A program made the position numbers and the translations under genes. Below, piece by piece: positions 37,569-61,114 of a DNA stretch of 64,000 bases. Position 1 is the first letter of the stretch; the number at the start of each line of letters is the position of its first letter. The DNA comes from Leifsonia sp. C5G2 (GTDB lineage: Bacteria; Actinomycetota; Actinomycetes; Actinomycetales; Microbacteriaceae). The notes beneath the pieces are model-generated. The model was not told the origin of the DNA. It saw only the letters and a program-made list of their open reading frames with translations, and did no database searches. The stretch spans positions 190,858-254,857 of the forward strand of contig NZ_JABFMV010000001.1 in assembly GCF_013359685.1 (NCBI RefSeq). Direction: 5' to 3'.

Positions 37569-38666
37569 TCACCACGTCTCGGGCCGCGCCCCCGCGGGCA
37601 CCGGCGCCGGTCGGTCGACCGTCGACGTCAACTCGACCACCGCGTGCGTCGACCCCGCACGGATCACGGACTCCATGATCTCGAGCACGTGGAAGGCCAC
37701 CTCGCCCGAGGCCCGGTGCGGCCGGTCCGTCTCGATCGCGCGCGCCAGATCGGCCAGGCCGTAGCCGCGGCCGGCGTCCGCGTAACCCGCCAGCGGGGCG
37801 ACCTCGCGGAACTCCCGGTCGTCGGCCGTCGCCAGGTGCACGGTGTCCGAGAACATGTTCGGGTCGGGAACGGCGATCGTGCCCGACGTCCCGTACACCT
37901 CGAACTTCGGCGTCTGCGTCGCCCAGACCTCGAACGACACGGTCACGGTCGAGATGACGCCGGAGGCGTGCTCCAGGATCGCGGTGACGTGCGTGTCCAC
38001 GTCCACCGGGATGGTGGAGCCGGCGAGCGGGCCCGTCGCGACCCGGCGCTCCCGAGTCGACCGGCCGGTCGCGCCGGAGACGCGGACGACCGGGCCGAAG
38101 AACTGCACCAGGCTGGTCAGGTAGTACGGGCCCATGTCGAACAGCGGACCTCCGCCCGGCTGGTAGTAGAACGCGGGGGCGGGATGCCACAGCTCGTGTC
38201 CCGGCGCGCTCCAGGCGACCGCGGCGGCCACCGGGTCGCCGATCCGCCCGTCGTCCAGCAGGGCGCGGGCGGTCTGCACGCCCGTCCCGAGCACGGTGTC
38301 GGGCGCGCAGCCCACCCGCAGTCCGCGCTCGGCGGCGTGCTGCAGCACGGGCGCCGCCTCCGCCGTCGAGAGGGCCAGCGGCTTCTCGCCGTAGACGTGC
38401 TTGCCCGCGGCGAGCGCGCGCAGGGCGACCTCGGCGTGGGCCTGCGGGATGGTCAGGTTGAGCACCGCGTCCACCCGCTCGTCGGTGAGGAGGTCGTCGA
38501 CGGAGAGGGCGACGACGCCCTGCTCGGCGGCCACCGCGGACGCGCGGTCGAGGTCCAGGTCGGCGACGGCCGTCAGCCGCAGGTTCGGCAGCTGCGGGAA
38601 GTGCTCGAAGTACTGGCGGCTGATGACGCCGACCCCGACGACTCCGATGTTCAGCGGGCGGCCCAC
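37569..38666 (-). CDS. Gfo/Idh/MocA family oxidoreductase
   Basis: A 365-residue NAD(P)-dependent sugar oxidoreductase. The Rossmann start is PLNIGVVGVGVISRQYFEHF, and the cofactor/catalytic motif is AGKHVYGEKPLAL. The C-terminal domain has GGGPLFDMGPYYLTSLVQFFG. The GTG at 38666 has GAGAGGGGG upstream and overlaps the end of the ThuA gene by 16 bp, so the two are coupled. The pairing with ThuA recalls ThuAB sugar-oxidation modules, in which 3-keto sugars are formed; applying that here is inference. Confidence 0.9.
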   Translation of the reverse strand: MGRPLNIGVVGVGVISRQYFEHFPQLPNLRLTAVADLDLDRASAVAAEQGVVALSVDDLLTDERVDAVLNLTIPQAHAEVALRALAAGKHVYGEKPLALSTAEAAPVLQHAAERGLRVGCAPDTVLGTGVQTARALLDDGRIGDPVAAAVAWSAPGHELWHPAPAFYYQPGGGPLFDMGPYYLTSLVQFFGPVVRVSGATGRSTRERRVATGPLAGSTIPVDVDTHVTAILEHASGVISTVTVSFEVWATQTPKFEVYGTSGTIAVPDPNMFSDTVHLATADDREFREVAPLAGYADAGRGYGLADLARAIETDRPHRASGEVAFHVLEIMESVIRAGSTHAVVELTSTVDRPAPVPAGARPETW

Positions 38667-39343
38667 AGCATCCCCCTCTCGATGATGGTGCGCACAGGCC
38701 GGCTCTCGACGATCTCCAGCCGGTGGCCGGGAGCCGAGACGAAGATGCGGCCCTTCCCCCACTGGCGGGTCCAGATCGCCGGGGCGGTGACCGGACGGTT
38801 CCACGCGTCCCACGGTCGCACCTCCTGGGTGGTCGTGGCGAGCACGTCGTTGTACTCGTCGCTCAGCACCCAGTACTGCTCGGTGACCAGGTCGAAGTCG
38901 TCGAGCCCTGAGGTGATGGGATGCGTCTTGCCGTACTCGGTGATGTGCACGGTGTACGGGATGTAGTTGTCGGACTGCTCGCCGACGCGCTCGGCCGGGT
39001 CCTTGCCCGCGTGGTGGGCGAACTGGCCGCCGATCATGTGCAGGTAGTCGGCGTTGTTGCGGTACGAGTCGGCGATGCCGCCGTGCCAGCCGGCCATGCC
39101 GGTGCCGTTCAGGACGGCCTTCTGGAGGCCGCGGAACTCGGCGTCCTCGATCGTGTTCATGGTGTTCACCTGCACGATGAGGTCGACCGTCGCCATGTAG
39201 TCCTCGTCGGCGTAGACGGCGGTCCCCTCCTCGACGCGCACGTCGAATCCGTTGTCGCGCAGGAAGGGGCGGAACAGGTCCGTCGTCTCCACGGGCATGT
39301 GCCCGTCCCATCCCCCGCGCACCATCACTGCCTGCCTGCTCAT
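38651..39343 (-). CDS. ThuA domain protein (trehalose-utilisation type)
   Basis: A 230-residue ThuA-like, class-I-glutamine-amidotransferase-fold protein. Visible family features are VRGGWDGHMP at the start, DLIVQVNTMN, GTGMAGWHGGIADSYRNN and the Thr/His-rich VTAPAIWTRQWGKGRIFVS. The ATG at 39343 is set by GGAAGGAAAGC; an upstream in-frame ATG lacks a site. It overlaps the next Gfo/Idh/MocA gene by 16 bp. In rhizobia ThuA works with the ThuB oxidoreductase on trehalose and related disaccharides; the substrate here is unknown. Confidence 0.88.
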   Translation of the reverse strand: MSRQAVMVRGGWDGHMPVETTDLFRPFLRDNGFDVRVEEGTAVYADEDYMATVDLIVQVNTMNTIEDAEFRGLQKAVLNGTGMAGWHGGIADSYRNNADYLHMIGGQFAHHAGKDPAERVGEQSDNYIPYTVHITEYGKTHPITSGLDDFDLVTEQYWVLSDEYNDVLATTTQEVRPWDAWNRPVTAPAIWTRQWGKGRIFVSAPGHRLEIVESRPVRTIIERGMLWAAR

Positions 39344-39371
39344 GCTTTCCTTCCGGTTGCTCACGTTCGAC

Positions 39372-39438
39372 GCCATCGCCTCCTGAGTTGTTCGCGTCCG
39401 CGACGGCGTGTCGCTCGAAGAACTCAGGAGCTGATGGC
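39372..39438. repeat. Palindromic intergenic repeat, copy 2 of 3
   Basis: Arms 39372-39394 and 39416-39438 (20/23 complementary) with a 21-nt loop. The copy ends 14 nt from the oxidoreductase stop codon and lies between that gene and ThuA, both on the minus strand. The core CTCCTGAGTT / AACTCAGGAG is identical to copies 1 and 3. Confidence 0.85.
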
Positions 39439-39452
39439 TTGGGGGTGGGGGG

Positions 39453-40640
39453 TTACGGGATCGGGGTCCAGGCGGACGAGGCGTCGGCGCTGCGCTCGAC
39501 GGCGTCCAGGACGCGCTGGATGTGGAGGCCGTCGGCGAAGGACGGCTCGGGATCGGCGTCCGCGGCGATCGCGGTGACGAAGTCGACCACTTCGTGGCTG
39601 AACGCGTGCTCGTAGCCGATGGCGTGGCCGGTGGGCCACCAGTTGGCCATGTACGGGTGCTCCGGCTCGGTGGCGATGATGCGCGTGAAGCCCTGCTCGC
39701 CCGCGGGGGCGGTCGCGTCGTAGAACTCGAGCTCGTTCATCCGCTCCAGGTCGAACGCGATGGCGCCGCGCGAGCCGCTCAGCTCGATGCGGAGCGCGTT
39801 CTTGCGTCCCGTCGCATAGCGGGTGGCCTCGAAGCCGCCGATCGCGCCGTCCGCCGCGCCGCCGGCGAGTCGCGCGGTGAACCAGGCGGCGTCGTCGACG
39901 GTGACCCGACCGCGCTCGGCGGAGGCGGTTCCCGAGAGCCCGACGCCCTCGGCGAGCAGCGGGCGCTCCTCGACGAAGGTGGCGAGTGTGCCCGAGACGC
40001 CGGTCAGGCGCGAGCCGGTCAGGTGCTCGACCAGGTCGACGGCGTGCGCGCCGATGTCGCCGAGGGAGCCGGACCCGGCGAGCGACTTGTCGAGCCGCCA
40101 GGTCATCGGGCCGTCCTCGTCGCGCAGCCAGTCCTGGAGGTAGAGGGCGCGCACCTGGCGGATCTCGCCGAGCCGCCCATCCCGCACCAGGGTCCGCGCC
40201 AGCCCGATCGCGGGGACGCGACGGTAGCTGAACCCGACCATCGAGCGGATGCCGCGCTCCGCGGCGCGCTCGGCGACGACGGTCATCGCCTCGGCCTCCT
40301 CGACCGTGTTGGCGAGCGGCTTCTCGCAGAGCACGTGCTTCCCGGCCTCCAGTGCGGCGATCGCGATCTCGGCGTGGCTGTCGCCGGGCGTGCAGATGTC
40401 GATCACGTCGATGTCCGGATCGCCGACGACGGTGCGCCAGTCGGTCTCGGCCCGCTGCCAGCCGAAGCGGACGCGGGCCTCCTCGACCCGGGCGGCGTCG
40501 CGCCCGACGATGACCGCGAGTTCCGGCTCGTACGGCAGGTCGAAGAAGCGGGGCGCGGTGCGCCAGCCCTGCGAGTGGGCAGCGCCCATGAACCCGTAGC
40601 CGATCGTCGCGACCCGCAGCCGCGGCTTGTCGTCGGTCAT
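39453..40640 (-). CDS. Gfo/Idh/MocA family oxidoreductase
   Basis: A 395-residue oxidoreductase, a distant relative of the one at 37569-38666. The Rossmann motif is VATIGYGFMGAAHSQGW, and EKP is in HVLCEKPLANTVEE. The substrate-domain segment is SGSLGDIGAHAVDLVEHLTG. It heads the minus-strand run oxidoreductase, ThuA, oxidoreductase and ROK. CGAAA-type direct repeats lie in its upstream region next to a LacI gene, which may regulate it. Substrate (a sugar or inositol-like polyol) not determined. Confidence 0.9.
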   Translation of the reverse strand: MTDDKPRLRVATIGYGFMGAAHSQGWRTAPRFFDLPYEPELAVIVGRDAARVEEARVRFGWQRAETDWRTVVGDPDIDVIDICTPGDSHAEIAIAALEAGKHVLCEKPLANTVEEAEAMTVVAERAAERGIRSMVGFSYRRVPAIGLARTLVRDGRLGEIRQVRALYLQDWLRDEDGPMTWRLDKSLAGSGSLGDIGAHAVDLVEHLTGSRLTGVSGTLATFVEERPLLAEGVGLSGTASAERGRVTVDDAAWFTARLAGGAADGAIGGFEATRYATGRKNALRIELSGSRGAIAFDLERMNELEFYDATAPAGEQGFTRIIATEPEHPYMANWWPTGHAIGYEHAFSHEVVDFVTAIAADADPEPSFADGLHIQRVLDAVERSADASSAWTPIP

Positions 40641-40696
40641 CCTCGCCCTCCGTCTCCGTCGATCCCGTGGCGACGCTAGTTCGCGTCGCGGAGGGC

Positions 40697-40730
40697 GGGC
40701 AAGTTTCGGGGGGAGGTTGGAAAACTTTCG
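40697..40730 (-). promoter_or_regulatory. Direct repeats before oxidoreductase gene
   Basis: On the minus strand CGAAAGTTTTCC (40719-40730) and CGAAACTTGCCC (40697-40708) repeat with a 22-bp period. CGAAA half-sites are typical of LacI-family sugar operators, and a LacI gene ends directly beside them at 40731. Confidence 0.35.
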
Positions 40731-41735
40731 TCAGGCGGGCGGCGCTGCGGTCGAGCCGCGCTCGATCAGCGTGGTCGCCAGCTCCAGCCGGGGGTTCTCG
40801 ACCTCCCCCGCACGAAGGCGCAACGCCAGTCGGGTCGCCTCCTCCGCCATCTCCTGCAGCGGCTGCCGCACCGTGGTCAGCGGCGGCCGCGCCCATGACG
40901 CTGACGGCGCGTCGTCGAACCCGACGACGGACACGTCGCGCGGAACGTCCAGCCCGAGCGCGAACGCGGCGTCGCAGACGCCGAGCGCCTGCATGTCGTT
41001 GCCGCACACGATCGCCGTGGGGCGGTCGGGGCCGGCCAGCAGCCTCCGTCCCTCCCGTTCGCCGTCGGCCCGCGAGAACCCGGCGGCACGGGCTCGGCCC
41101 GGGATGCGGACGCCCGCCTCGTTCAGCGCCGACTCGTACCCGGCGAGGCGCGCACGGGAGCAGAGCATGTCGGCCGGGCCGCCGATCGCCGCGATCCGGG
41201 TGTGGCCCAGCGCGAGCAGGTGCCGGGTCGCGGCGACGCCGCCCGCCCAGTTGGTCGCGCCGATGGCCGGGACGTCCGGCGGCGGATCGCCCGCCGGGTC
41301 CACGACCACGAACGGGATGTTCCGCGTGCGCAGCTGGCGGCGGTGGTCCGCGGTCAGGTTCGAGAACTGCAGCACGATCGCCACGGGCTTCCTGCGCAGG
41401 ACGCCGGTGATCAGCTCGTCCCCGACGGCGTGGTAGTCGCCGATCGTCGAGAGCGTCAGGGCGAGTCCGTTCTCGCGGCTCACCCGCTCCACCCCGCGGA
41501 TCACGGCGACGGACCACTCGCTCGCCAGGTTCTCGATCACGAGCTCGACGGTCTCGCCGCGCTCGGCATCCACACCCCGCCGGGCGTAGCCGGAGTCGTG
41601 CAGCAGCTCCTCCACGCGCCGCCGGGTCACGGCCGACACCCCCGGCCGGCCGTTCAGCACCTTGGACACCGTGGACAGCGAGACGGAGGCCTCGCGCGCG
41701 ATCGCCTCCAGCGTCGGACGGGTGGGAGCGGGCAT
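40731..41735 (-). CDS. LacI family regulator
   Basis: A 334-residue repressor. The HTH is LEAIAREASVSLSTVSKVLN (residues 8-27), and the periplasmic-binding-like domain ends with SVVGFDDAPSASWARPPLTT and RQPLQEM. The ATG at 41735 (MPAPTRPT) places the HTH at the usual distance. It is divergent from the CE7 esterase gene with 67 bp between, so it probably represses that gene, and perhaps the oxidoreductase on its other side. Confidence 0.93.
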   Translation of the reverse strand: MPAPTRPTLEAIAREASVSLSTVSKVLNGRPGVSAVTRRRVEELLHDSGYARRGVDAERGETVELVIENLASEWSVAVIRGVERVSRENGLALTLSTIGDYHAVGDELITGVLRRKPVAIVLQFSNLTADHRRQLRTRNIPFVVVDPAGDPPPDVPAIGATNWAGGVAATRHLLALGHTRIAAIGGPADMLCSRARLAGYESALNEAGVRIPGRARAAGFSRADGEREGRRLLAGPDRPTAIVCGNDMQALGVCDAAFALGLDVPRDVSVVGFDDAPSASWARPPLTTVRQPLQEMAEEATRLALRLRAGEVENPRLELATTLIERGSTAAPPA

Positions 41736-41802
41736 GCAGCCACTGTGCCACAATGACGCCCACGCTCCCCCACGAACGAAACCCCCTCCGAAAGCGAGAC
41801 CG

Positions 41803-42780
41803 ATGCCGCTCAGCGACCTCACCCACGACGAACTGCTGGCGTTCCGCCCGGACGTTCAGGAACCCGCCGACTTCGACGCCTTCTGGGAGCGGACCATCGC
41901 GTCGGCCCGGGAGGCCGGCGGCGTGCCGGAACTGACCCCGGCGGACACCCCGGTCACGCAGCTGCGGATCGACGACCTCGTGTTCCCCGGGTTCGGCGGC
42001 GAGCCGATCCGGGCATGGGTGTCGCGTCCGCTGAACGCCGACGGGCCGCTGCCCGCCGTCGTGCAGTACCAGGGCTACGGCGGCGGCCGCGGGCTCGCGG
42101 GCGAGAACGTGTCGTGGGCGCTCGCCGGCTACGTGCACGTCTTCGTCGACACGCGCGGGCAGGGCAGCGGCTGGGGCTCCGGCGGAGACACCGCCGACCC
42201 GCACGGCTCGGGGCCGGCGACGCCGGGCGTGATGACCCGCGGCATCCACTCGCCGGAGACCTACTACTACCGCCGCGTGTTCACGGACGCCGTGCGCGCC
42301 GTCGACGCGACCCGCGCGCTGCCGTTCGTGGACGCCTCCCGCGTGGCCGTGGCCGGCGGCAGCCAGGGCGGCGGCATCGCCCTGGCGGCCGCCGCGCTGT
42401 CGGGCGACGCCGTGTCGGCGGTCCTGCCGGACGTCGCGTTCCTGTGCGCCTTCCGCCGCGGCGTGGAGGTCGCCGTGGGGGGCCCCTACCAGGAGCTCGC
42501 CACGTACCTGTCGGTGCACCGCGACGAGGTCGCCGACGTGTTCCGGACCGTGTCGTACTTCGACGGGGTGAACTTCTCCCGCCGCATCCACGCGCCCTCG
42601 CTGTTCTCGGTGGCGCTGATGGACACCGTGGTGCCGCCGTCGACGACCTTCGCGGCCTACAACCACCTCGCCGCGGAGGACCGCACCATCGAGGTCTACC
42701 CGTTCAACGACCACGAGGGCGGCGGCGCCCTGCACTTCCGTACGCAGGCCGCCTGGCTCGCCGCGCGCTTCGCCCGCTGA
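41803..42780 (+). CDS. CE7 family acetyl-ester hydrolase (acetylxylan esterase/cephalosporin C deacetylase)
   Basis: A 325-residue cytoplasmic alpha/beta hydrolase. CE7 markers are FDAFWERT, the RGQ motif (DTRGQGSGW, residues 116-124), nucleophile Ser187 in AGGSQGGG, Asp274 in LMDTVVPPS, and His304-Glu305 in NDHEGGG. CE7 enzymes deacetylate short xylo-oligosaccharides after uptake, which fits the surrounding xyloside genes. It is divergent from its probable LacI regulator and convergent with a second LacI gene across a seven-unit repeat array. Confidence 0.94.
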   Translation: MPLSDLTHDELLAFRPDVQEPADFDAFWERTIASAREAGGVPELTPADTPVTQLRIDDLVFPGFGGEPIRAWVSRPLNADGPLPAVVQYQGYGGGRGLAGENVSWALAGYVHVFVDTRGQGSGWGSGGDTADPHGSGPATPGVMTRGIHSPETYYYRRVFTDAVRAVDATRALPFVDASRVAVAGGSQGGGIALAAAALSGDAVSAVLPDVAFLCAFRRGVEVAVGGPYQELATYLSVHRDEVADVFRTVSYFDGVNFSRRIHAPSLFSVALMDTVVPPSTTFAAYNHLAAEDRTIEVYPFNDHEGGGALHFRTQAAWLAARFAR

Positions 42781-42800
42781 CCCCCGCCCCGGCCCCGCCA

Positions 42801-42940
42801 CTCGTCACGAACCGCCTCCGTTCGTGACGAATCGCGCCCATTCGTCACGAATCGCGTGCACTCGTCACGAATCGGATCGCAGCCGTTCGTGACGAATCGC
42901 GTGCACTCGTGACGAATCGCGGGCGTTCGTGACGAATGGT
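42801..42940. repeat. Seven-unit array of TTCGTSACGAA palindromes
   Basis: Seven 15-bp units of consensus YTCGTSACGAATCGC start at 42801, 42821, 42841, 42861, 42886, 42906 and 42926, a 20-bp period broken once by 25. Each unit holds an 11-bp dyad TTCGT(C or G)ACGAA, and all keep ATCGC on the same side, so they are direct repeats of a palindrome. Spacers are 5 bp (one is 10). The array fills the gap between the convergent esterase and LacI genes. It could be a terminator, a protein-binding array or a REP-like cluster. Confidence 0.85.
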
Positions 42941-42945
42941 GCGGG

Positions 42946-43944
42946 TCAGGCGGGCGGGGCGGTGGTGGCGCGGCGTACGAGGCGGGTCGGCAGGCGCAGG
43001 TGGATGCGCTCGGGCGTCTCGCCGTTCATCAGCGAGATCAGCAGGTCGGCGGCCGCCGCTCCGAGTCCCTGCATCGGCTGCCGCACGGTGGTCAGCGGCG
43101 GGCTGAACTGCGACGCCTCCGGGATGTCGTCGAAGCCGATCACGCTGAGGTCGCGGGGCACGTCGAGGCCGAGCTCCGCCGCGACCTCGATCACCGCGAT
43201 CGCCGAGATGTCGTTGGCGGCGAACACCGCGGTCGGCCGGTCCGCGCGGCTCAGCAGCGGCAGCGCGACCCCGCGCACGGTGTCGTGCTCGAAGCGGCCG
43301 ACCGCGACCAGCGACGGATCGAACGGGATGCCAGCCTCGCCGAGCGCCCGCCGGTAGCCGGCGTCGCGCAGGTTGGACGAGCGCAGGTCGGGGCGGCCGG
43401 CGACGAAGGCGATCCGGCGGTGGCCCAGCGCGATGAGCGCCGCGGTGGCGTTGCGCGCGCCGCCGAAGCTGTCCGACTCGACCGTCGGCACGTCGGCTCG
43501 GCCGGTGTGCGGGTCGATCGCGACGATGGGCACCTCGGCGTTCGCGTTCACGACCGTCGGGGTCACCATGATGACGCCGTCGATGAGCGTCCCACTGAGC
43601 CGGCTGAGCGAGCGCCGCTCCCATCCCTCGCTCGACGGCTGGCGGGAGCCGCTGTAGGCGAGCAGGTCGTAGCGCGAGTCGTGCAGGGCCGCGCCGACGC
43701 CCTTCAGGATCTCGGCGGAGAACGGCTCGAAGTCGGCGACGAGCACCCCGATCACGCCCGTGCGCCGCGAGCGCATGCTCGATGCGACGAGGCTGGACTC
43801 GTACCCGAGCTCCTGGACGACCTGCAGCACGCGCTCCACGGTCTCCACCGCGACGCCGTAGCGGCCGTTCACCGCCTTGGACACGGTGGCGACCGAGACG
43901 CCGGCCGCCTCGGCCACGTCATTGATCGTCGGACGCCGTCCCAT
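42946..43944 (-). CDS. LacI family regulator of the xyloside operon
   Basis: A 332-residue repressor with HTH TINDVAEAAGVSVATVSKAV (residues 6-25), hinge YESSLVASSMRSRRTG and a sugar-binding domain ending IGFDDIPEASQFSPPLTTVRQ. It is divergent from the binding-protein gene of the second importer. A GTTTTCGAAAAC operator and TTGACA promoter lie in the 111-bp gap, so it most likely represses the importer-GH3 unit and itself. The inducer is inferred to be a xylo-oligosaccharide or xylose. Confidence 0.94.
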   Translation of the reverse strand: MGRRPTINDVAEAAGVSVATVSKAVNGRYGVAVETVERVLQVVQELGYESSLVASSMRSRRTGVIGVLVADFEPFSAEILKGVGAALHDSRYDLLAYSGSRQPSSEGWERRSLSRLSGTLIDGVIMVTPTVVNANAEVPIVAIDPHTGRADVPTVESDSFGGARNATAALIALGHRRIAFVAGRPDLRSSNLRDAGYRRALGEAGIPFDPSLVAVGRFEHDTVRGVALPLLSRADRPTAVFAANDISAIAVIEVAAELGLDVPRDLSVIGFDDIPEASQFSPPLTTVRQPMQGLGAAAADLLISLMNGETPERIHLRLPTRLVRRATTAPPA

Positions 43945-43969
43945 GGCGGTCGAGCATACAGTAGAAAAG

Positions 43970-43981
43970 GTTTTCGAAAAC
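43970..43981. promoter_or_regulatory. LacI operator
   Basis: Perfect 12-bp palindrome GTTTTCGAAAAC immediately upstream of the -35 of the importer promoter and about 25 bp from the LacI start. A central CG flanked by T and A runs is typical of LacI-family operators. Binding would repress both divergent genes. Confidence 0.75.
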
Positions 43982-43983
43982 GT

Positions 43984-44012
43984 TTGACACCGCTCCGGGC
44001 GCTTGCGACACT
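43984..44012 (+). promoter_or_regulatory. Promoter of second importer operon
   Basis: Consensus -35 TTGACA (43984-43989), 17-bp spacer, weak -10 GACACT (44007-44012). It lies 2 bp after the LacI operator and 43 bp before the ATG. Confidence 0.6.
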
Positions 44013-44055
44013 TCCGAGCGTCCCCACCTCAACGAAGAGAACAGGTTGGAATCAC

Positions 44056-45345
44056 ATGAAAGGCACCAAGCTCCTCACCGGGGCCGCCGTCGTGATGGCC
44101 GGCGCGCTCGCCCTCAGCGGGTGTAGCGGCGGCTCCGACAGCTCCAGCAGCAACGGCAAGGTCAGCATGACCCTCTGGCAGAACTCCACCACCGGCCCCG
44201 GCCAGGAGTTCTGGAAGAACGCCGTCGCCGCATTCGAGAAGGCGAACCCCAACGTCACCATCAAGGTCCAGTCCATCCAGAACGAGGACCTCGACGGAAA
44301 GCTCCAGACCGCGCTGAACTCCGGCGACGCTCCCGACATCTTCCTGCAGCGAGGCGGCGGCAAGATGGCGGCGATGGTCAACGCGGGCCAGCTCATGGAC
44401 ATCACCGGCAAGGTGTCGTCCGAGACCAAGAAGAACATCTCCGAGGGCTCCTTCAAGGCGGAGACCTACCAGGACAAGATCTGGGCCATGCCGATCGCCG
44501 TGCTCCCGGGCGGTCTGTTCTACAGCCAGGACCTGTTCAAGGCCGCCGGCATCACCGACGCTCCGAAGACGATCGACGACCTCAACGGCGACGTCACCAA
44601 GCTGAAGGCCACCGGCGTCGCGCCGATCGCCCTCGGCGCCAAGGACGCCTGGCCCGCCGCGCACTGGTTCTACTGGTTCGCGCTGCGCGAGTGCGCCGGC
44701 TCCACCATGGAGAAGACGGCCGACTCGAAGTCGTTCTCGGACGGCTGCTGGCTGAAGGCCGCGGAGGACCTGCAGAAGTTCGCCGACACCAAGCCCTTCA
44801 ACGACGGCTTCCTGACCACCTCCGCCCAGCAGGGCGCGGGCAGCTCGGCCGGCCTCGTCGCCAACCACAAGGCCGCCATGGAGCTCATGGGCGCGTGGGA
44901 CCCGGGCGTGATCGCGTCCCTGACCCCCGACCAGAAGCCCCTGCCCGACCTCGGCTTCTACCCGTTCCCGGAGGTTCCGGGCGGCAAGGGCGAGCCCGGC
45001 TCGATCATGGGCGGCGTCGACGGCTACTCGTGCTCGGTCAAGGCTCCCAAGGAGTGCGCCGACTTCCTCAACTTCGTGGCCACCACGGACCAGCAGGAGG
45101 CCTACTACAAGGCCTTCAACGCCCCGCCGGTGAACTCCGAGGCCCAGAAGGTCGTCACCGAGCCCTACCTGAAGGATGTGCTCAAGGCGTACAACGCGGC
45201 CCCGTTCGTCTCGCAGTGGCTCGACACCGTGCTCGGCCAGAACGTCGGCAACGCGCTGAACGTCGCGGTCGTCGACATGCTGGCGGGCAAGAGCGACCCG
45301 AAGCAGCTCATCCAGGCGGCCAACGACGCCGCGAAGAAGGGCTGA
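44056..45345 (+). CDS. Sugar-binding lipoprotein of second ABC importer
   Basis: A 429-residue family-1 solute-binding protein. Lipobox ALSGC gives Cys23, and a Ser-rich linker follows. Mature motifs are MTLWQNSTTGPGQEFW, PDIFLQRGGGKMAAMV and MGGVDGYSCSVKAPKECADF. It is the first gene of the operon running to the GH3 gene and is controlled by the LacI operator upstream. The organisation is like xylobiose (BxlE) importers of streptomycetes; the substrate is inferred from the downstream beta-xylosidase and xylose genes. Confidence 0.94.
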   Translation: MKGTKLLTGAAVVMAGALALSGCSGGSDSSSSNGKVSMTLWQNSTTGPGQEFWKNAVAAFEKANPNVTIKVQSIQNEDLDGKLQTALNSGDAPDIFLQRGGGKMAAMVNAGQLMDITGKVSSETKKNISEGSFKAETYQDKIWAMPIAVLPGGLFYSQDLFKAAGITDAPKTIDDLNGDVTKLKATGVAPIALGAKDAWPAAHWFYWFALRECAGSTMEKTADSKSFSDGCWLKAAEDLQKFADTKPFNDGFLTTSAQQGAGSSAGLVANHKAAMELMGAWDPGVIASLTPDQKPLPDLGFYPFPEVPGGKGEPGSIMGGVDGYSCSVKAPKECADFLNFVATTDQQEAYYKAFNAPPVNSEAQKVVTEPYLKDVLKAYNAAPFVSQWLDTVLGQNVGNALNVAVVDMLAGKSDPKQLIQAANDAAKKG

Positions 45346-45356
45346 GGTAGTCCGAC

Positions 45357-46403
45357 GTGACGAACATCCGCGAGAACACCACCGGCCTCGCGCCGGCCGC
45401 GGGTCTCGCGCAGCACGGCGGGGGCGACGCGATCGTGTCGCCCCCGTCGCGGCAGCGCCGCCCCCGCAAGGGCCGCTGGTCCGGCCGGCTCGAGATCCTC
45501 CTGCTCGCCGGGCCCGCAGTCGTCGTCTTCCTGGGCTTCGTGATCGCCCCGGTCGTGATGGCGGCCTACTACGGCTTCTTCCGCTGGGCGGGCTACGGCA
45601 CGCCGACCGACTTCGTCGGCCTGCAGAACTACATCACCATCCTGACCGACTCCGCGTTCCAGCAGGCGCTGGCGCACAACGCGTTCATCGTCGTCATGTC
45701 CCTCGTGCTGCAGGGACCGGTCGCGATCCTGCTCGCGCTGCTGCTCAACCGCAAGATGCGCGGCCAGTCCCTCATCCGCGTCCTGATCTTCGTGCCGTAC
45801 GTGATCGCCGAAGTCGTGGTCGGGACGGGCTGGAGCCTGATGCTCGCCACGAACGGCGCGCTGAACGGCATGCTCAAGAACCTCGGGCTCGACTTCCTCG
45901 TGCACGACTGGCTGTCCGACCCGAGCCTCGCCATCTGGACGCTGATGGGCATCCTGACCTGGAAGTACGTCGGTTTCGCCGTCATCCTCTTCCTCGCAGG
46001 CCTCCAGGGCATCCCGGAGGAGCTGTACGAGGCGGCGGCTCTGGACGGGGCCTCGTACTGGCAGATCCAGCGTCGCATCACGCTCCCGCTGCTGGGTCCG
46101 ACCCTCCGCATCTGGGCGTTCCTGTCGATCATCGGCGCACTGCAGCTGTTCGACCTCGTCTACATCATCTGGGGCCAGTACGTCGCATCGACGGCCGGCA
46201 CCTCCACCATGGCGACCTACATGGTCGCGAACGGCCGCAACGCCGGCAACTTCGGCTACGGCAACGCCGTCGCCGTCGTGATCTTCCTGATCTCGCTCGT
46301 CGTGGCCCTCGTCTACCAGCGGTTCGTGCTCCGGCGCGACACGGCGGGCGCCCTCACCGGCGACAGCCGGAAGGCGCAGCGCGCAGAAAGGAAGGGACGA
46401 TGA
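45357..46403 (+). CDS. Sugar ABC importer permease (BxlF/MalF type)
   Basis: A 348-residue permease with a long Pro/Arg-rich cytoplasmic N-terminus (about 40 residues) and six TMs. The EAA loop is YEAAALDGASYWQIQRRITL. It starts at a GTG 12 nt after the binding-protein stop, with GAGG upstream. Its stop overlaps the next permease start (ATGA). No ATPase is encoded in the operon, so an ATPase from elsewhere (MsiK-like) must power it. Confidence 0.94.
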   Translation: MTNIRENTTGLAPAAGLAQHGGGDAIVSPPSRQRRPRKGRWSGRLEILLLAGPAVVVFLGFVIAPVVMAAYYGFFRWAGYGTPTDFVGLQNYITILTDSAFQQALAHNAFIVVMSLVLQGPVAILLALLLNRKMRGQSLIRVLIFVPYVIAEVVVGTGWSLMLATNGALNGMLKNLGLDFLVHDWLSDPSLAIWTLMGILTWKYVGFAVILFLAGLQGIPEELYEAAALDGASYWQIQRRITLPLLGPTLRIWAFLSIIGALQLFDLVYIIWGQYVASTAGTSTMATYMVANGRNAGNFGYGNAVAVVIFLISLVVALVYQRFVLRRDTAGALTGDSRKAQRAERKGR

Positions 46404-47281
46404 CGACCCTCACCGCGACCCCCGAGCCGACGCTCCCCACCGAGACCCGCAAGAAGGAGAAGGGCCTCCCGTGGGGTTCCCCGGCGATCTACTTCGTGGC
46501 GCTCGTCGTCATCGCGCTGATGCTCGCCCCGATCGCGTACATCGTGATCGGCGGCTTCCGCACCAACTCGCAGATCACGGTCGACCCGGCGGGCTTCCCG
46601 AACCCCTGGAACGTCGCCAACTACCTGGACGTCCTCAGCGGCAGCACCTTCTGGCAGGAGGTGCTCAACTCCACGATCGTGGCGGTGGTCACCACGCTCG
46701 GCGTCATCGCGCTCGGCCTGATGGCGAGCTACGTGCTGGCGCGGTACCGCTTCCGCGGCCGCGGAGTGCTCTACGCACTGTTCGCGGCGGGCCTGATGTT
46801 CCCCATCACGGTCGCGATCACGCCGCTCTACATCGTGGTGCGCAACCTCGGCCTGATGAACTCGCTCGGCGGCGTCATCCTGCCGCAGATCGCGTTCGCG
46901 CTGCCGACGACGATCATCATCCTGGTGCCGTTCCTGCGGGCCATCCCGGACGAGATCGAGGAGGCCGCGTTCATCGACGGCTGCAGCCGGCTCGGCTTCT
47001 TCTGGCGGATGGTGCTCCGGCTGTCGCTGCCCGGCGTCATCACCGTCGGCATCCTCGCCTTCATCGCCAGCTGGAACAGCTACCTGCTGCCGCTCTTCCT
47101 CCTCAACAACGACGCGACATTCACCCTCCCGCTCGGCGTCCAGGCGTTCTCGTCGCAGTACTCCCAGGACACGGCGAAGGTGCTCGCCTTCACGTCGCTG
47201 TCCATGATCCCGGCGCTGGTGTTCTTCAGCCTGTTCGAGCGCCGCATCGTCGGCGGCCTGACCGGCGCCGTCAAGGGCTGA
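46400..47281 (+). CDS. Sugar ABC importer permease (BxlG/MalG type)
   Basis: A 293-residue permease with six TMs; the EAA loop is EEAAFIDGCSRLGFFWRMVL. AAAGGAAGGG precedes the ATG, which overlaps the previous stop. The GH3 beta-xylosidase gene begins 30 nt later, so uptake and hydrolysis are probably expressed together. Confidence 0.94.
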   Translation: MTTLTATPEPTLPTETRKKEKGLPWGSPAIYFVALVVIALMLAPIAYIVIGGFRTNSQITVDPAGFPNPWNVANYLDVLSGSTFWQEVLNSTIVAVVTTLGVIALGLMASYVLARYRFRGRGVLYALFAAGLMFPITVAITPLYIVVRNLGLMNSLGGVILPQIAFALPTTIIILVPFLRAIPDEIEEAAFIDGCSRLGFFWRMVLRLSLPGVITVGILAFIASWNSYLLPLFLLNNDATFTLPLGVQAFSSQYSQDTAKVLAFTSLSMIPALVFFSLFERRIVGGLTGAVKG

Positions 47282-47310
47282 CGCCCTCTCCATCAGAAGT
47301 GAGATCGAGA

Positions 47311-49635
47311 ATGACCGAAACCTCCACGGGGCCGACTGCGCCCTCCGAGCGCGTCCGAGCCCTGCTCGCCGACATGACCCTGGATGAGAAACTCGCCCAG
47401 CTGGTCGGCTTCTGGGTCGACAAGGGCGACGAGCTCGTCGCCCCGATGGCCGGCGAGATGGGCAACCCGGGGGCATACGAGGAGGTCACCGCCAACGGCC
47501 TCGGTCAGCTCACCCGCGTGTACGGCACGCGTCCGGTCGAGCCGGCGGAACGCGCCGCGTGGCTGTGGTCGGAGCAGCGGCGGCTGAAGGAGGAGACCCG
47601 GCTGGGCATCCCCGCGCTCGTGCACGAGGAGTGCCTCACGGGACTCGCCGCGTGGAAGGCGGCGACCTTCCCGACCCCGCTGGCGTGGGGCGCGTCGTTC
47701 GACCCCGAGCTGGTGGAGGAGATGGCCGGGCTGATCGGCGCCTCGATGCGCCAGCTGGGCATCCACCAGGGCCTCGCTCCGGTTCTGGATGTCATCCGCG
47801 ACCCGCGCTGGGGCCGCGTCGACGAGTGCATCGCCGAGGACCCGTACGTCGTCGGCACCCTCGGGACGGCCTACGTGCGCGGCCTGCAGGGCGCGGGCGT
47901 GCACGCCACCCTGAAGCACTTCGTCGGCTACTCCGCGTCGCAGGCGGGGCGCAACCACGCTCCCGTCCACGCCGGCCCGCGCGAGGTGCGCGACACCCTC
48001 CTCCCCCCGTTCGAGATGGCGGTGCGGGACGGCGGCGTGCGGTCGGTCATGAACTCGTACGCCGAGATCGACGGCGAGCCGGTCGCGGGAACACCCGCCT
48101 ACCTGACCGGCATCCTGCGCGACGAGTGGGGCTTCGACGGGACGGTTGTCTCCGACTACTTCTCCGTCGCGTTCCTGCACACCATGCACGCGGTGGCGGC
48201 CGACCTCGGCGAGGCGGCGGCGCTGGCTCTCGCCGCGGGGATCGACGTCGAGCTGCCGACCGGCGACGCCTTCCTCGGCCCGCTGGCCGACCTGGTCCGT
48301 TCCGGAGGGGTCGACGTCGGCCTGATCGACCGGTCCGTGCTCCGGGTGCTGGCGCAGAAGGAGGAGCTGGGCCTGCTCGACGCCACCTTCGACGAGCCGC
48401 CGACGGAGATCGACCTCGACACCCCGGCCCACCGCGACGTCGCGCTGCGGCTGGCCGAGGAGTCGCTCGTGCTGCTGACCAACGACGGCACGCTGCCGCT
48501 CGCCGGCTCCCCCGCGCGCATCGCGGTCCTCGGGCCGAACGCGGATGCGCCGGAGGCGCTCATGGGCTGCTACTCGTTCGCCAACCATGTGCTCGCCCAC
48601 CACCCCGAGGTGCCGCTCGGCTTCGAGCTGCCGTCGGTGCTGGACGCGGTCCGCGGCGAGTTTCCGGACGCGTCCGTCGCGCACGAGCGCGGCTGCGCCG
48701 TCGAGGGCGACGACCGCTCCGGGATCCCGGCGGCGGTGAACGCGGCGAGCGCCGCGGACGTCGCCGTGGTCGTCGTCGGCGACCGGGCCGGACTGTTCGG
48801 CCGCGGCACGGTCGGCGAGGGCAACGACGTTGAGAGCCTGGAGCTCCCGGGCATCCAGCGCGAGCTCGTGGAGCGGGTCGTCGCGACGGGAACGCCGGTC
48901 GTGCTCGTCGTGCTCTCCGGCCGGCCGTACGCGATCTCCTGGGCCGTCGAGGGCGTCACCGCACCGGCCGCCGTGCTGCAGGCGTTCTTCCCCGGCGAGG
49001 AGGGCGGCCGTGCTATCGCGGCCGTGCTGTCCGGCCGGGTCTCCCCCTCCGGGCACCTGCCGGTGTCGCTGCCCCGCTCCGCCGGGGCTCAGCCGTACTC
49101 GTACCTGCACCCGATCCTCGGCGGCCCGAACGAGATCACCAGCGCCGACAGCACCCCGGTGCTGCCGTTCGGTCACGGTCTGTCGTACACGTCGTTCGAG
49201 CGCTCCGGGCTCAGCGTCGACCGTGAGGTGGAGGCGGGCGACGCGTTCACCGCGACCGTGCGCATCCGGAACACCGGCGAGCGCGCGGGCACCGACCTCG
49301 TCCAGCTGTATGCGCGGGATGTGCACGCCAGCGTGACCCGCCCGGTCGCGCAGCTGCTCGGCTACCACCGGGTGGCGCTGCAGCCCGGCGAGGAGACCGT
49401 GGTGCGGTTCTCCGTGCCGACCTCGCGGCTCGCCTTCTCGGACCGCGCGATGCGCCGGATCGTCGAGCCGGGCGCGGTGGAGGTGTGGGTCGGACCGTCG
49501 TGCGCCGAGCGCGAGACGGCGGCAGAGCTGACGATCACCGGCGCCGTGCACGCGATCACCCCGGCCGACGCGCGGCTGGTGACGTCGACGGCCGAAGCGG
49601 CTACCGTGAGTGCCGTCTTCACCGACGCGCTCTGA
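47311..49635 (+). CDS. GH3 beta-xylosidase/beta-glucosidase
   Basis: A 774-residue cytoplasmic glycosidase with no signal peptide. GH3 N-domain: [21 protein letters not shown] (Lys202-His203) and the nucleophile Asp282 in TVVSDYFSV. The GH3 C-domain follows ([18 protein letters not shown]), then a fibronectin-III-like domain (about residues 680-750). The SDYF form and the xylose gene context favour beta-xylosidase over glucosidase, but GH3 specificity cannot be fixed by eye. It is the last gene of the LacI-controlled importer unit and is followed by xylA. Confidence 0.93.
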
Positions 49636-49665
49636 GACGGGGTCGCGCCGCGGGCGCACATCCTG

Positions 49666-49688
49666 TATAAGTTTATTGGAACAACAAA
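49666..49688 (+). promoter_or_regulatory. xylA -10 and XylR-type operator
   Basis: TATAAG (49666-49671) is a clear -10; no good -35 is visible. Directly after it comes TTTATTGGAACAACAAA (49672-49688), an inverted repeat TTTATTG-N3-CAACAAA with 6/7 arm match. CAACAAA/TTTGTTG half-sites are those of ROK-type XylR operators, and the site overlaps the start point, as for a repressor. Confidence 0.65.
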
Positions 49689-49714
49689 TCACCGACGAAG
49701 CTGAAGGAATCCCC

Positions 49715-50905
49715 ATGAGCCTCACCCCCACCCGCGCCGACAAGTTCTCGTTCGGACTGTGGACCATCGGCTACAACGGCACCGACCCGTTCGGCGGCCC
49801 GACCCGGCCGCAGCTCGACGTGGTCGAGGCGGTGCACAAGCTCGACGAGCTCGGCGCCTACGGCCTCACCTTCCACGACGACGACCTGTTCGCGTTCGGC
49901 TCGACCGACGCCGAGCGCCAGAAGCAGATCGACCGCCTCAAGCAGGCCCTGCAGGACACCGGCATCATCGTCCCGATGGTGACCACGAACCTGTTCTCGG
50001 CCCCCGTCTTCAAGGACGGCGGCTTCACCTCCAACGACCGCGCCGTCCGCCGCTTCGCGCTGCGCAAGGTGCTCCGCAACCTCGACCTCGCAGCCGAGCT
50101 CGGCGCCAAGACGTTCGTCATGTGGGGCGGCCGCGAGGGCGCCGAGTACGACGCCGCGAAGGACATCCGCTCGGCCCTCGAGCGCTACCGCGAGGCCGTC
50201 AACCTGCTCGGCGACTACGTCACCGACAAGGGCTACGACATCCGCTTCGCCATCGAGCCGAAGCCGAACGAGCCGCGCGGCGACATCCTGCTGCCGACCG
50301 TCGGTCACGCGCTCGCGTTCATCAACTCGCTGGAGCGCCCGGAGCTCGTCGGCCTCAACCCGGAGGTCGGCCACGAGCAGATGGCGGGCCTCAACTTCGC
50401 CGCCGGCATCGCCCAGGCGCTGTACCACGACAAGCTGTACCACATCGACCTCAACGGGCAGCGCGGCATCAAGTACGACCAGGACCTGGTCTTCGGCCAC
50501 GGCGACCTGCAGAACGCGTTCGCCCTCGTCGACCTGCTGGAGAACGGCGGCCCCGACGGCGGCCCGGCCTACGACGGCCCGCGCCACTTCGACTACAAGC
50601 CGTCGCGCACCGAGGACATCACCGGCGTGTGGGACTCGGCCGCGGCCAATATGCGCACCTACCTGCTGCTCAAGGAGCGGGCGCAGGCGTTCCGCGCCGA
50701 CCCCGAGGTGCAGGAGCAGCTGGAGGCGTCGCGTGTGATCGAGCTGTCGCGCCCCACCCTCGGCGAGGGCGAGTCGTACGACGACCTGCTGGCCGACCGC
50801 AGCGCCTACGAGGACTTCGACCCCAGCGCCTACTTCGGCGGCAAGGGCTTCGGCTTCGTCCGTCTGCAGCAGCTCGCCCTGGAGCACCTGCTCGGCGCCC
50901 GCTGA
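49715..50905 (+). CDS. xylA: Xylose isomerase
   Basis: Isomerises D-xylose to D-xylulose in the cytoplasm. The 396-residue protein is of the actinobacterial (class I) type. Active-site residues match the Streptomyces numbering: His54 and Asp57 (TFHDDDLF), Trp137 (VMWGGREG), Glu181 and Lys183 ([13 protein letters not shown]); metal-site residues in [12 protein letters not shown] and LFHIDLNGQ-like [15 protein letters not shown] are present. GAAGGA precedes the ATG. It has its own promoter and XylR-type operator and is followed by xylB. Confidence 0.98.
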
Positions 50906-50940
50906 GCCTCCCCCATCCCATCCCCATCCCCCATTTCCGT

Positions 50941-50996
50941 GAGGTGCTCGCAGTTGCTCGCCCGGCCCGCGTGTCGGCAGCATCTGCGAGCACCTC
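50941..50996. terminator. Long hairpin between xylA and xylB
   Basis: Arms GAGGTGCTCGCAGTTGCT (50941-50958) and AGCATCTGCGAGCACCTC (50979-50996) are complementary at 17 of 18 positions, with a 20-nt loop. The hairpin starts 35 nt after the xylA stop and ends 22 nt before the xylB GTG. It may attenuate xylB relative to xylA or stabilise xylA mRNA. Confidence 0.6.
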
Positions 50997-51018
50997 GCGT
51001 CGTTGAAAGGACGCCGGC

Positions 51019-52455
51019 GTGACGTTGGTCGCGGGAGTCGACTCGTCGACTCAGAGTTGCAAGGTCGTGGTTCGGAACCTCGAGACGGGAGGACTGGTGC
51101 GCTCCGGGCGCGCGGCGCACCCGGACGGGACCGAGGTCGACCCCGCCGCCTGGTGGTCGGCGCTGCAGGAGGCGCTGGCGGACGCGGGCGGGCTCGACGA
51201 CGTCGACGCGATCTCCATCGCCGGGCAGCAGCACGGGATGGTCGTGCTGGATGCGGAGGGCCGGGTCATCCGCGACGCCCTGCTCTGGAACGACACCCGC
51301 TCGGCGCAGGCCGCCCGCGACCTGATCGCCGAGGTCGGCGCCGAGGCCTACGCCGAGCGCGTGGGCGTCGTCCCCGTCGCCTCCTTCACCGCGACCAAGC
51401 TGCGCTGGCTGCGGGATGCGGAGCCCGCGAACGCCGCCCGCGTCGCGGCCGTCGCGCTCCCCCACGACTGGCTGACCTGGCGCCTGCTCGGCTACGGCCC
51501 CTCCGGCGAGAGCGAGCTCGGCCCGGACCTCGAGGCGCTCACCACCGACCGCTCCGACGCCAGCGGCACCGCGTACTGGAGCGCAGCGACCGGTGCGTAC
51601 GACCTCGACCTGTTCGAGCGCGCCCTCGGGCGCCCCGGCCGCGAGGCGGGAGCCGCCGACGCGGACACGAACGCCGTTGTGCTGCCGCGCGTGCTCGGCT
51701 CCGCCGAGTCCGCCGGCCGCACGCCCTCCGGGGTGCTCGTCGGCCCCGGCGCGGGCGACAACGCGGGAGCCGCGCTCGGGCTCGGCGCCGCCGAGGGCGA
51801 CGTGGTCGTCTCGATCGGGACCTCGGGCACGGTCTTCGCCGTCACCGACGGCCCCGTCTCGGACGCGTCCGGGACCGTCGCCGGCTTCGCCGACGCGTCC
51901 GGCGTCTCCCTCCCGCTCATCGCGACGCTCAACGCGGCGCGCGTGCTGGGGTCCATCGCGGGACTGCTGGGCGTCGACCACGACGGACTGGCGGAGTTGG
52001 CCCTGTCGGCCGAGCCCGGGTCCGGCGGGGTGGTGCTCGTGCCCTACTTCGAGGGCGAGCGCACGCCGAACCTGCCGGACGCGAAGGCCAGCATCCACGG
52101 CCTCACCCTCGCCTCGACGACGCCGGCCAACCTGGCGCGGGCGGCGATCGAGGGGATGCTGTGCGGGCTCGCCGACGGACTCGACGCGGTGCGGTCGGTC
52201 GGGGTGAAGGAGCGGCGCATCCTGCTGATCGGCGGCGCCGCGCAGAACCCGGCCGTCGCCCAGGTCGCCGCGCAGGTCTTCGACGCCCCGGTCGAGGTTC
52301 CCGCGCCGGGCGAGTACGTCGCCGACGGCGGAGCCGTGCAGGCCGCCTGGGCCCTGACCGGCTCCCGCCCCGCCTGGACCGTGGAGACCCTCACGACCCT
52401 CCCCGTCGACACCCGCCCCCTCATCCGCACCCAGTACGCCGCCGCCCGCCCCTGA
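51019..52455 (+). CDS. xylB: Xylulokinase
   Basis: Phosphorylates D-xylulose to xylulose 5-phosphate, feeding the pentose phosphate pathway. The 478-residue FGGY-family kinase has [15 protein letters not shown] at the N-terminus, [14 protein letters not shown] and the ALLWNDTRS segment of [18 protein letters not shown] and [19 protein letters not shown] lie in FGGY_C. AAAGGA lies upstream of the GTG. The gene is downstream of xylA and convergent with gntK across repeat copy 3. Confidence 0.96.
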
Positions 52456-52473
52456 TCCCGGGCCGGCTACGAC

Positions 52474-52541
52474 GCCAAGAGCTCCTGAGTTTTTCGAGCG
52501 ACTCGCCGCGTGGCGGGTGGAAGAACTCAGGAGCTCTTGGC
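52474..52541. repeat. Palindromic intergenic repeat, copy 3 of 3
   Basis: Arms 52474-52496 and 52519-52541 (21/23 complementary) with a 22-nt loop. It lies between the convergent xylB and gntK genes, 12 nt from the gntK stop. The outer stem reads CCAAGAG/CTCTTGG where copy 1 reads CCATCCG/CGGATGG, so both strands changed together. A terminator for both genes is plausible. Confidence 0.85.
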
Positions 52542-52553
52542 TTGGAGCGGGGG

Positions 52554-53048
52554 TCAGAGGGCGGCGGCGGCTTGGGCGGCGAGGGTTGCGGGAGGGGCGG
52601 CGATGTCGAGGGTGATGTGGCGCTCGTCGGGGGTGAGGGGCTCCAGGGTGGCGAGCTGGCTCTGCAGCATGCCCGCCTTCATGAAGTGGTGCTCGCGGGA
52701 GGCCAGCCGTTGTTCCAGGAGTTCGGGCGTGCCCGCCAGGTGCACGAACGTCACCTCGTCGCGCCGCAGCACGTCCCGGTAGCGCCGGGCGAGCGCGGAG
52801 CACGCGACCACGACCGACCGCCCCGCGGCCAGCCGCTCGTCCGTCCAGGCCGCGATCGCGGCGAGCCAGGGCGCACGGTCGTCGTCGGTGAGCGGGATGC
52901 CCGCGGCCATCCGTTCGACGTTCGCGACGGGGTGCAGCGCATCCCCCTCCAGGAGGTCCCAGCCGAGCCGCTCGGCGAGGAGCGCCGCCACGGTCGACTT
53001 GCCGCAGCCGGCGACCCCCATCACGACGACCGCGCGCCCGGCGCTCAT
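52554..53048 (-). CDS. gntK: Gluconokinase
   Basis: Phosphorylates gluconate to 6-phosphogluconate. The 164-residue protein has the compact GntK length, with P-loop VMGVAGCGKSTVAALLAERL (about residues 9-28), LLEGDALHPVANVERMAAG and PLTDDDRAPWL, and ASREHHFMKAGMLQSQLATLE, a GntK fingerprint. The ATG overlaps the gntP stop by 4 bp. Transport and phosphorylation are therefore coupled. Confidence 0.96.
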   Translation of the reverse strand: MSAGRAVVVMGVAGCGKSTVAALLAERLGWDLLEGDALHPVANVERMAAGIPLTDDDRAPWLAAIAAWTDERLAAGRSVVVACSALARRYRDVLRRDEVTFVHLAGTPELLEQRLASREHHFMKAGMLQSQLATLEPLTPDERHITLDIAAPPATLAAQAAAAL

Positions 53049-54460: not shown

Positions 54461-54505
54461 GAACGTCCTTGGTCAGTGCGGATAGGGCAGGAACACTCTA
54501 GGAAT

Positions 54506-54526
54506 AAATCAGATTTGTGTCTAATC
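54506..54526. promoter_or_regulatory. Palindromic elements between gntP and its regulator
   Basis: AAATCAGATTT (54506-54516) is an 11-bp dyad, and GATT-N7-AATC (54512-54526) overlaps it. On the minus strand this region falls between candidate -35 and -10 hexamers for gntP. The divergent FadR-type regulator is the likely binder. Confidence 0.45.
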
Positions 54527-54602
54527 AATGCCGGACAATACCGACATTACGCCGACCAACGACCGCTTTGACCGGATGAGTCTCCTCCGCGGATAATGAA
54601 GC

Positions 54603-55298: not shown

Positions 55299-55325
55299 CG
55301 CGGGCGCGGCGCGGGCGTAGGGCCG

Positions 55326-59260: not shown

Positions 59261-59291
59261 GATGAGGGGCCGGCGGTCCCGGCCCCTCATC
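59261..59291. terminator. Terminator hairpin after CU044_5270 gene
   Basis: Perfect 13-bp stem GATGAGGGGCCGG (59261-59273) / CCGGCCCCTCATC (59279-59291) with a 5-nt loop, 9 nt after the stop codon of the CU044_5270 gene on the minus strand. It is a strong GC hairpin without a T-tract. Confidence 0.7.
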
Positions 59292-59300
59292 GTCAGCTGC

Positions 59301-60978: not shown

Positions 60979-61114
60979 ACTGTGTATTGCTTCTCTTGGT
61001 ACGAAAGGTTCGATATCCGTCATCGGAGAAGACGCATCCGCGGGGGAATCATGATCCGCTGGGAGGGTTCCCCGCCGCCCTCCGCCGCGGGAACATGGGC
61101 GACAAGGAGGTCTG

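Follow-up and report, generated by a model that had tools for sequence, protein, structure and literature searches.

A seven-palindrome array between convergent genes of Leifsonia sp. C5G2 and its relation to dispersed repeats associated with nuclease-like genes

In the window examined here, a stretch of 64,000 nucleotides of Leifsonia sp. C5G2 DNA, seven short palindromes are set one behind another between two convergent genes, which raises the question of what these palindromes are and how they came to be multiplied. An earlier note had considered a multivalent site for an abundant DNA-binding protein, a decoy for a regulator, an expanding satellite and a repeated terminator. We compared the array within its own genome (G000) and with other genomes (G001-G027). 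The reading that we judge to be probable is that the array is a locally multiplied copy of a Leifsonia REP-like element, the partner of which is a Vsr-like nuclease, and that the element is spread by cutting and repair. The features within the window are collected in Table 1.

Table 1. Positions of the array, its neighboring genes and two further elements in the window
Feature	Position	Strand	Basis and remarks
Array of seven palindromic cores TCGTSACGA; expanded family-1 element of the 20-bp type	42801..42940	.	Sequence reading and genome-wide family
Acetyl xylan esterase (AXE1) gene, convergent neighbor; stop codon 20 bp before the array	41803..42780	+	Pfam PF05448, 2e-96; no specific role inferred
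LacI-type regulator gene, convergent neighbor; stop codon 5 bp after the array	42946..43944	-	Pfam PF00356 and PF13377; no specific role inferred
Family-2 hairpin GCCAAGAGCTCCTGAGTTTTTCG...GAAGAACTCAGGAGCTCTTGGC between convergent genes with ends at 52455 (+) and 52554 (-)	52474..52541	.	Family frames a paralogous nuclease gene on G000 contig C18
Second family-2 element with approximate ends, flanked by genes 38651-39376 and 39453-40640 on the minus strand	39378..39438	.	Sequence

Direct reading placed the starts of the 9-mer TCGTSACGA at 42802, 42822, 42842, 42862, 42887, 42907 and 42927 (span 42802-42935); the intervals of 20, 20, 20, 25, 20 and 20 bp bear out the seven palindromes with a 20-bp period and a single interval of 25 that had been described, as do the 5-bp spacers in which GTGCA occurs twice. 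The full 15-mer YTCGTSACGAATCGC is exact in four of the seven units, the remaining three having one, one and two mismatches. With up to two mismatches allowed, the window holds 11 matches against 1.24 expected from shuffles, and 10 of these lie inside the array, three of them on the reverse strand. A strong folding potential of the array was confirmed by prediction (-91.8 kcal/mol for 42791-42950). The supposed link to sugar metabolism through the LacI and esterase genes found no support: G000 has at least 33 clusters of this kind, the array among them (33 were examined and further ones lie on other contigs), and other palindromes occur at the same gene pair in other species. An operator of a sugar operon for the LacI gene was ruled out on the same grounds, the array type being genome-wide. 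No Rfam match above the gathering score was present in window positions 38000-56000. As a separate observation, about 1.8 kb of the window (59264-61063) is present in G000 and missing from G001 at the equivalent place.

The array was found to belong to a real genome-wide intergenic repeat, and array length varies between relatives. The genome-wide count that the earlier note had proposed gave 66 copies of the 14-mer TCGTSACGAATCGC in G000 (35 + 31) and none of the reversed control. The family-1 core ATTCG-NNN-CGAAT is present in 26 of the 28 genus genomes, with 0-459 copies each and 0-1 for the reversed control. The 15-mer was detected in 17 of 60 genomes, G000 included, every one of them Leifsonia, and a stricter doublet pattern was found in 7 of 398 genomes of the bacterial family (85 genera; 10 genomes Leifsonia), all 7 again Leifsonia. 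Spread to other phyla was considered and rejected, the 20-bp triples in Halobellus, Labilithrix, a Rickettsiales MAG and an Actinomycetota MAG being different tandem repeats that share the 9-mer. Viral copies were likewise rejected: a 29-bp doublet pattern occurs in seven viral stretches, yet these contain no ATTYG-NNN-CRAAT core and their contexts are unrelated. All of these TCGTSACGA repeats outside the genus consist of different units or single chance-like pairs and were taken as coincidence.

A typical cluster in G000 consists of three cores spaced 20 bp. In most species sampled, the element comprises two 13-bp palindromes, ATTYG-NNN-CRAAT, exactly 40 bp apart from center to center, and G000 adds a third in the middle. 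Among consecutive intervals of up to 130 bp, at loci selected for containing the 15-mer and not for spacing, exactly 40 bp was found in 40 of 64 cases in G020, 23 of 37 in G023 and 32 of 51 in G026; across the three genomes together an interval of 39 bp never occurred and one of 41 bp occurred once, and G020 had neither. The 20-bp doublet was confined to G000, G001, G005, G009 and G014 (5/28), and a sister family, GATTTG-NNN-CAAATC, which often occurs in pairs at a distance of 40 bp, was present in 11 of the 28 genomes. The idea that all dyads face nearly the same side of the DNA thus retains its basis in a regular spacing of 20 or 40 bp, but strict one-face phasing is doubtful because intervals of 25, 35 and 45 bp between adjacent cores also occur.

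Orthologous arrays of G000 and G001 were compared at six loci, three further loci being unalignable across the array. The central base was swapped between C and G in 8 of 21 units (by eye), and just 7 changes were found over 168 arm positions; that is, arms are conserved and centers flip. It seems likely that these flips result from an inversion or conversion process. The central base varies as the earlier note had described, but the flank that it took to be constant is not so: ATCGC, ACGGC, ATGGC and GTCGC alternate over the arrays of the genome, in both orientations. At another locus of G000 (L046, G000:C22:227200-233400), at about 2987-3200, identical 20-bp units are broken by a run of N, and the tandem array there is probably longer than assembled. 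Family-1 or family-2 elements were also observed within about 100 bp of several G000 contig ends (C4:23, C14:68, C34:13, C9:62773 of 62858, C9:27, C10:35, C18:36, C30:60, C31:33 and C32:63), as if hairpins break short-read assembly, and element counts in draft genomes may be too low.

A spacing that is fixed at 20 or 40 bp, with sequence between the cores that varies and, in G020, no interval of 39 or 41 bp, is consistent with cores that serve as binding sites, either for a protein of the nuclease family or for some other abundant protein with the role of a regulator or chromosome organizer, the array then being a multivalent site or a decoy. Paired triplets in G017, which are equal in 9 of 18 cases and complementary in 2 of 18, as in direct repeats, point the same way, as does the presence of an element upstream of the nuclease gene described below. 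Elements lie mostly at 3' ends and not at promoters, however, and several other element families appear by eye as plain hairpins with no two-core layout; we regard binding sites as quite an unlikely explanation.

Elements of family 1 occupy a distinct position relative to genes. By gene calls from a simple codon-position caller, 18 of the 33 G000 clusters lie between convergent genes, as compared with 11 of 133 other adjacent gene pairs at the same loci, and for 28 of the 33 a called stop codon is no more than 26 bp away. Long inverted repeats of several sequence families showed a similar distribution in five segments (from G000, G001, G009, G005 and G019), being present in 10 of 14 convergent gaps, 15 of 120 tandem gaps and 1 of 25 divergent gaps. 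This enrichment fits terminators, or a niche that tolerates insertions. Both distributions, together with the very stable predicted fold, are in keeping with palindromes that serve as bidirectional terminators or 3'-end stem-loops of convergent genes and are alike through recombination, with nuclease genes merely lying at convergent ends. We hold this explanation to be rather unlikely, for reasons that lie partly in the hairpins and partly in the nuclease gene. The strong fold suits the suggestion that the array is a repeated terminator, but no hairpin followed by a U-tract was found in window positions 42700-43040. When the halves of the elements were swapped 200 times among copies within a genome, native pairs folded best in G021, with 0 of 200 swaps as good. 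The test showed no effect in G000, G020, G023 and the ATTCG set of G025 (166, 84, 100 and 169 of 200 swaps as good, respectively), and native folds were worse than swapped ones in G026 (200 of 200), the ATTTG set of G025 (199) and G017 (195). The long stem is therefore not generally maintained base by base; core and spacing are kept. One long RNA hairpin selected in all species was accordingly rejected, the half-swap results backing it only in G021.

The gap behind the esterase gene differs in content from genome to genome. In place of the seven-core array of G000, it contains one 53-bp element in G001, three cores in G005, an ATTTG-type element in G009 and G019, both types in G013 and G025, one 40-bp pair in G015, a tandem variant in G017, and other palindromes in G016/G021, G002/G011 and G003. 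No palindrome was seen here in genomes with a non-convergent next gene (G020, G023, G027, G026, G010, G024 and G008) or with a gap shorter than 20 bp (G007 and G004). The palindromes of G002 (locus L152) and G011 (L149) belong to another repeated family, around TTCGGGACGAACGCGGTAGCGACCGCTGCGG. G013 and G019 are 94-96% identical over the some 150 kb compared, and the one element-bearing difference found between them is at this gap, where G013 carries 74 bp with one 53-bp element that G019 does not have; no clear target duplication was seen there.

A candidate partner of the element was found at locus L068 of G000, outside the window, where two arrays enclose a gene whose 311-aa product has a Vsr/MTES_1575-like domain; homologues are also present in array loci of G020, G021 and G023. 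Homologues were detected in 27 of the 28 Leifsonia genomes, with up to 8 match rows per genome, and 24 of the 28 possess an orthologue as judged by flanking genes; these 24 are not independent because they represent one syntenic locus. In 23 of the 24 genomes, allowing one mismatch, one or more ATTYG-NNN-CRAAT cores stand on each side of the orthologue within 700 bp of the matched stretch; these genomes include G015, where the gene is at a contig end and was checked separately. The nearest upstream core lies within 230 bp of the match in 22 of these 23, and in G011 the match itself begins at residue 81. Among 251 ordinary genes, none had cores on both sides within 300 bp, and 23 had them on one side only; terminators leave unexplained why the same palindrome should stand on both sides of the nuclease gene. 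The exception is G012, which has the orthologue with other palindromes on its flanks and contains only 3 cores in its genome. The genomes without the orthologue contain 0 (G004 and G018) or 1 core (G007 and G022), and those with it contain, apart from G012, 4 (G006) or at least 22 (all others); with four genomes lacking the orthologue and kinship uncorrected, this is only supportive. In G006 the four cores that flank the nuclease gene are mixed ATTYG..CRAAT forms, and the 4 counted in the genome are exact ATTCG..CGAAT forms. The order A-> N-> <-B, in which the nuclease gene (N) precedes a convergent gene, was found for 66 of 69 Leifsonia homologues, 33 of 251 ordinary genes and 12 of 30 homologues in other genera; the Leifsonia nuclease gene sits at a convergent boundary, the same niche as the elements.

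The C-terminal part of the 311-aa protein matched the Pfam MTES_1575 model (E 1.8e-07) with 31.5 bits, below the curated cut-off of 38.2, and DUF559 with 20.6 bits, at the cut-off of 20.6. Of 20 aligned members, all matched MTES_1575 and 16 matched DUF559 at E up to 1; the Vsr model was matched by 5, with a best E of 0.0082. Six residues (H110, D231, Y243, R249, D257 and R260) are invariant in 65 homologues, and H248 and E242 are conserved in 64 and 63 of them. Such nearly invariant acidic and histidine residues are what we take to be expected of a Vsr-like PD-(D/E)XK site. A search against solved structures returned four matches, none of them significant: gamma-tubulin complex entries (E 0.059 to 1.2) and the 'mobile intron protein' 3r3p (E 0.57). 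The first approximately 190 residues gave no meaningful Pfam or NCBIfam match, and no DNA-binding domain was recognized in them, which also counts against cores as binding sites of this protein; that this N-terminal region nevertheless binds DNA is a guess.

Many other members of the nuclease family are framed by palindromes of their own. From 108 match rows in Leifsonia, flanks were taken for 70, and G015 was left out of the scoring, leaving 69 (46 paralogues and 23 orthologues), in which upstream and downstream flanks were compared by local alignment. The scores of 251 ordinary genes had a median of 15, a 99% value of 26 and a maximum of 39. Of the paralogues, 36 of 46 scored above 26 and 27 above 39, and 13 of the 23 orthologues scored above 26. 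Measured against the 99% value of flanks swapped within the genome (n = 186), 42 of the 69 Leifsonia homologues were above and 27 failed. In other genera, homologues are present in 20 of 22 genomes, with up to 11 match rows each, and 30 loci were taken from 83 match rows; 20 of the 30 exceeded the 99% value of swapped flanks (n = 870) and 10 failed, the passes including genomes of families f5, f6, f8, f9 and f18. The sequence of the shared flank palindrome varies from gene to gene. No nuclease homologue was confirmed in viral contigs.

The two family-2 elements in the window belong to such a pair. A paralogue on contig C18 of G000 is flanked on both sides by AGCTCCTGAGTTNTTCG hairpins, and the half-site AGCTCCTGAGTTNTTC occurs 101 times in G000 (48 + 53; control 0) and is found in 5 of the 28 genomes. 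Family-2 flanks are present on nuclease genes of G000, G013 and G019; G001 and G014 contain family-2 copies, but on none of the nuclease genes examined (4 of 5 and 4 of 4 match rows, respectively). Copies without a cognate nuclease among those examined, and tandem growth as seen in the seven units of the window array and in the array broken by a run of N, are the features to be expected of a selfish satellite that has no partner, in which case the nuclease would be a passenger in convergent gaps and the shared flanks would result from duplication at insertion. We consider such a satellite highly improbable, as palindromes common to both flanks turn up at several loci and in further families of the order and, within the orthologue set, follow the nuclease clade.

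This last relation was examined on a tree of 25 nuclease proteins (24 orthologues and the G007 homologue) labeled by flank element. The tree requires 5 label changes, the least possible number being 4 and the mean of shuffled labels 15.0, and none of 200 shuffles gave as few as 5. The three-core type and the ATTTG type each form a single clade (support 99/97 each), as does the type of G026, G010, G008 and G024 (90/79); scored one at a time, the TGC type and the rest require 3 changes apiece. G001 is the sister of G000, with 97% identity in the esterase and 95-96% in the DNA beside the nuclease gene. Its nuclease is just 61% identical to that of G000 and groups with the ATTTG clade, and its flanks are ATTTG-like; this suggests a joint exchange of enzyme and element in G001, at odds with species kinship. 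Across 83 of the 99 homologues, similarity of nucleases correlated with that of elements (rho 0.234; 0/1000 permutations), which is not independent proof because the correlation is carried by syntenic pairs; across non-syntenic loci the relation was weak.

Taken together, the association of palindromes with nuclease-like genes is well supported, and it suggests an unrecognized partnership between a DNA-cutting enzyme and dispersed repeats; cutting and mobility, like any terminator function, are what we infer from it. In the mechanism that we propose, the nuclease would recognize the palindrome that belongs to it, possibly in the form of an extruded hairpin, and cut or nick there. Repair from other copies would then spread, convert and multiply the element, in the manner of a homing nuclease or a RAYT/REP pair, arrays growing by unequal repair and centers flipping by inversion or conversion. 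Copies would persist where they are harmless, that is, behind stop codons, where a long RNA hairpin may secondarily end or separate two convergent transcripts, and the unit of palindrome, nuclease and palindrome could be swapped between strains as a cassette. More tentatively, and with somewhat less confidence than would tip the balance in its favor, we propose that Actinobacteria carry a whole class of nuclease-palindrome pairs, with several Vsr-like nuclease genes per genome, each of which would carry its private palindrome to the 3' ends of genes through cutting and repair. Such enzymes might then have produced much of what punctuates the space between convergent genes, with cassettes swapped between strains and old palindromes overwritten by those of a new enzyme.

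Among known systems, REP/REPIN sequences with their RAYT enzymes (REPtrons) resemble the Leifsonia element in being short, high-copy extragenic palindromes that lie behind genes or between convergent genes, are often paired, and frame the gene of an enzyme (the RAYT side in part after PMC3733652). They differ in that the Leifsonia partner is a Vsr-like protein, that family-1 spacing is 20 or 40 bp, and that nuclease paralogues have palindromes of their own. A RAYT-driven REP was ruled out, since the RAYT-type domain Y1_Tnp (PF01797) was found in 0 of the 28 genus genomes, 5 of 14 control genomes being positive. The CGTC-tagged REPs of Di Nocera et al. (2013) are REP-like palindromes for which, according to passages of PMC3733652, the authors found no dedicated transposase. 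The four CGTC families, as these passages describe them, have stems of 8-9 bp and loops of 4-5 nt and occur mostly in alpha-Proteobacteria; the words Actinobacteria, Leifsonia and Streptomyces are absent from the main text of that paper. By eye, CGTC in the Leifsonia element lies within the palindrome and not as an unpaired end tag. On the side of the enzyme, passages of PMC3710099 describe the MTES_1575-type domain as part of a large fused conflict protein, and the word palindrome is absent from its main text. A pairing of palindromes with a Vsr-like nuclease was not found described in the open-access literature among the matches listed, nor in the passages of PMC3733652, PMC12306157, PMC3710099 and PMC7319586 that were considered.

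REP-like palindromes that lack a RAYT have so far had no known partner (for CGTC REPs, according to passages of PMC3733652). If the proposed partnership is real, it would assign a substrate and a role to a nuclease family that is common in Actinobacteria but unexplained, and a single protein with a single DNA fragment would suffice to test where the hairpins between convergent genes of these bacteria come from. If the enzyme places short palindromes at chosen sites, it could become a new kind of DNA-inserting tool. The likeness of the protein to the MTES_1575-type Vsr REase domain and to DUF559 proteins lies in its C-terminal domain, with the matches at E up to 1 given above. Finally, Vsr-like homing endonucleases are represented by 'Mobile intron protein' (PDB 3r3p), which we take to have a Vsr-type fold. 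The sequence match to it is not significant (E 0.57), and no intron is involved in the Leifsonia case, but spread by cutting and repair is common to these endonucleases and to the model proposed here for the Leifsonia element.
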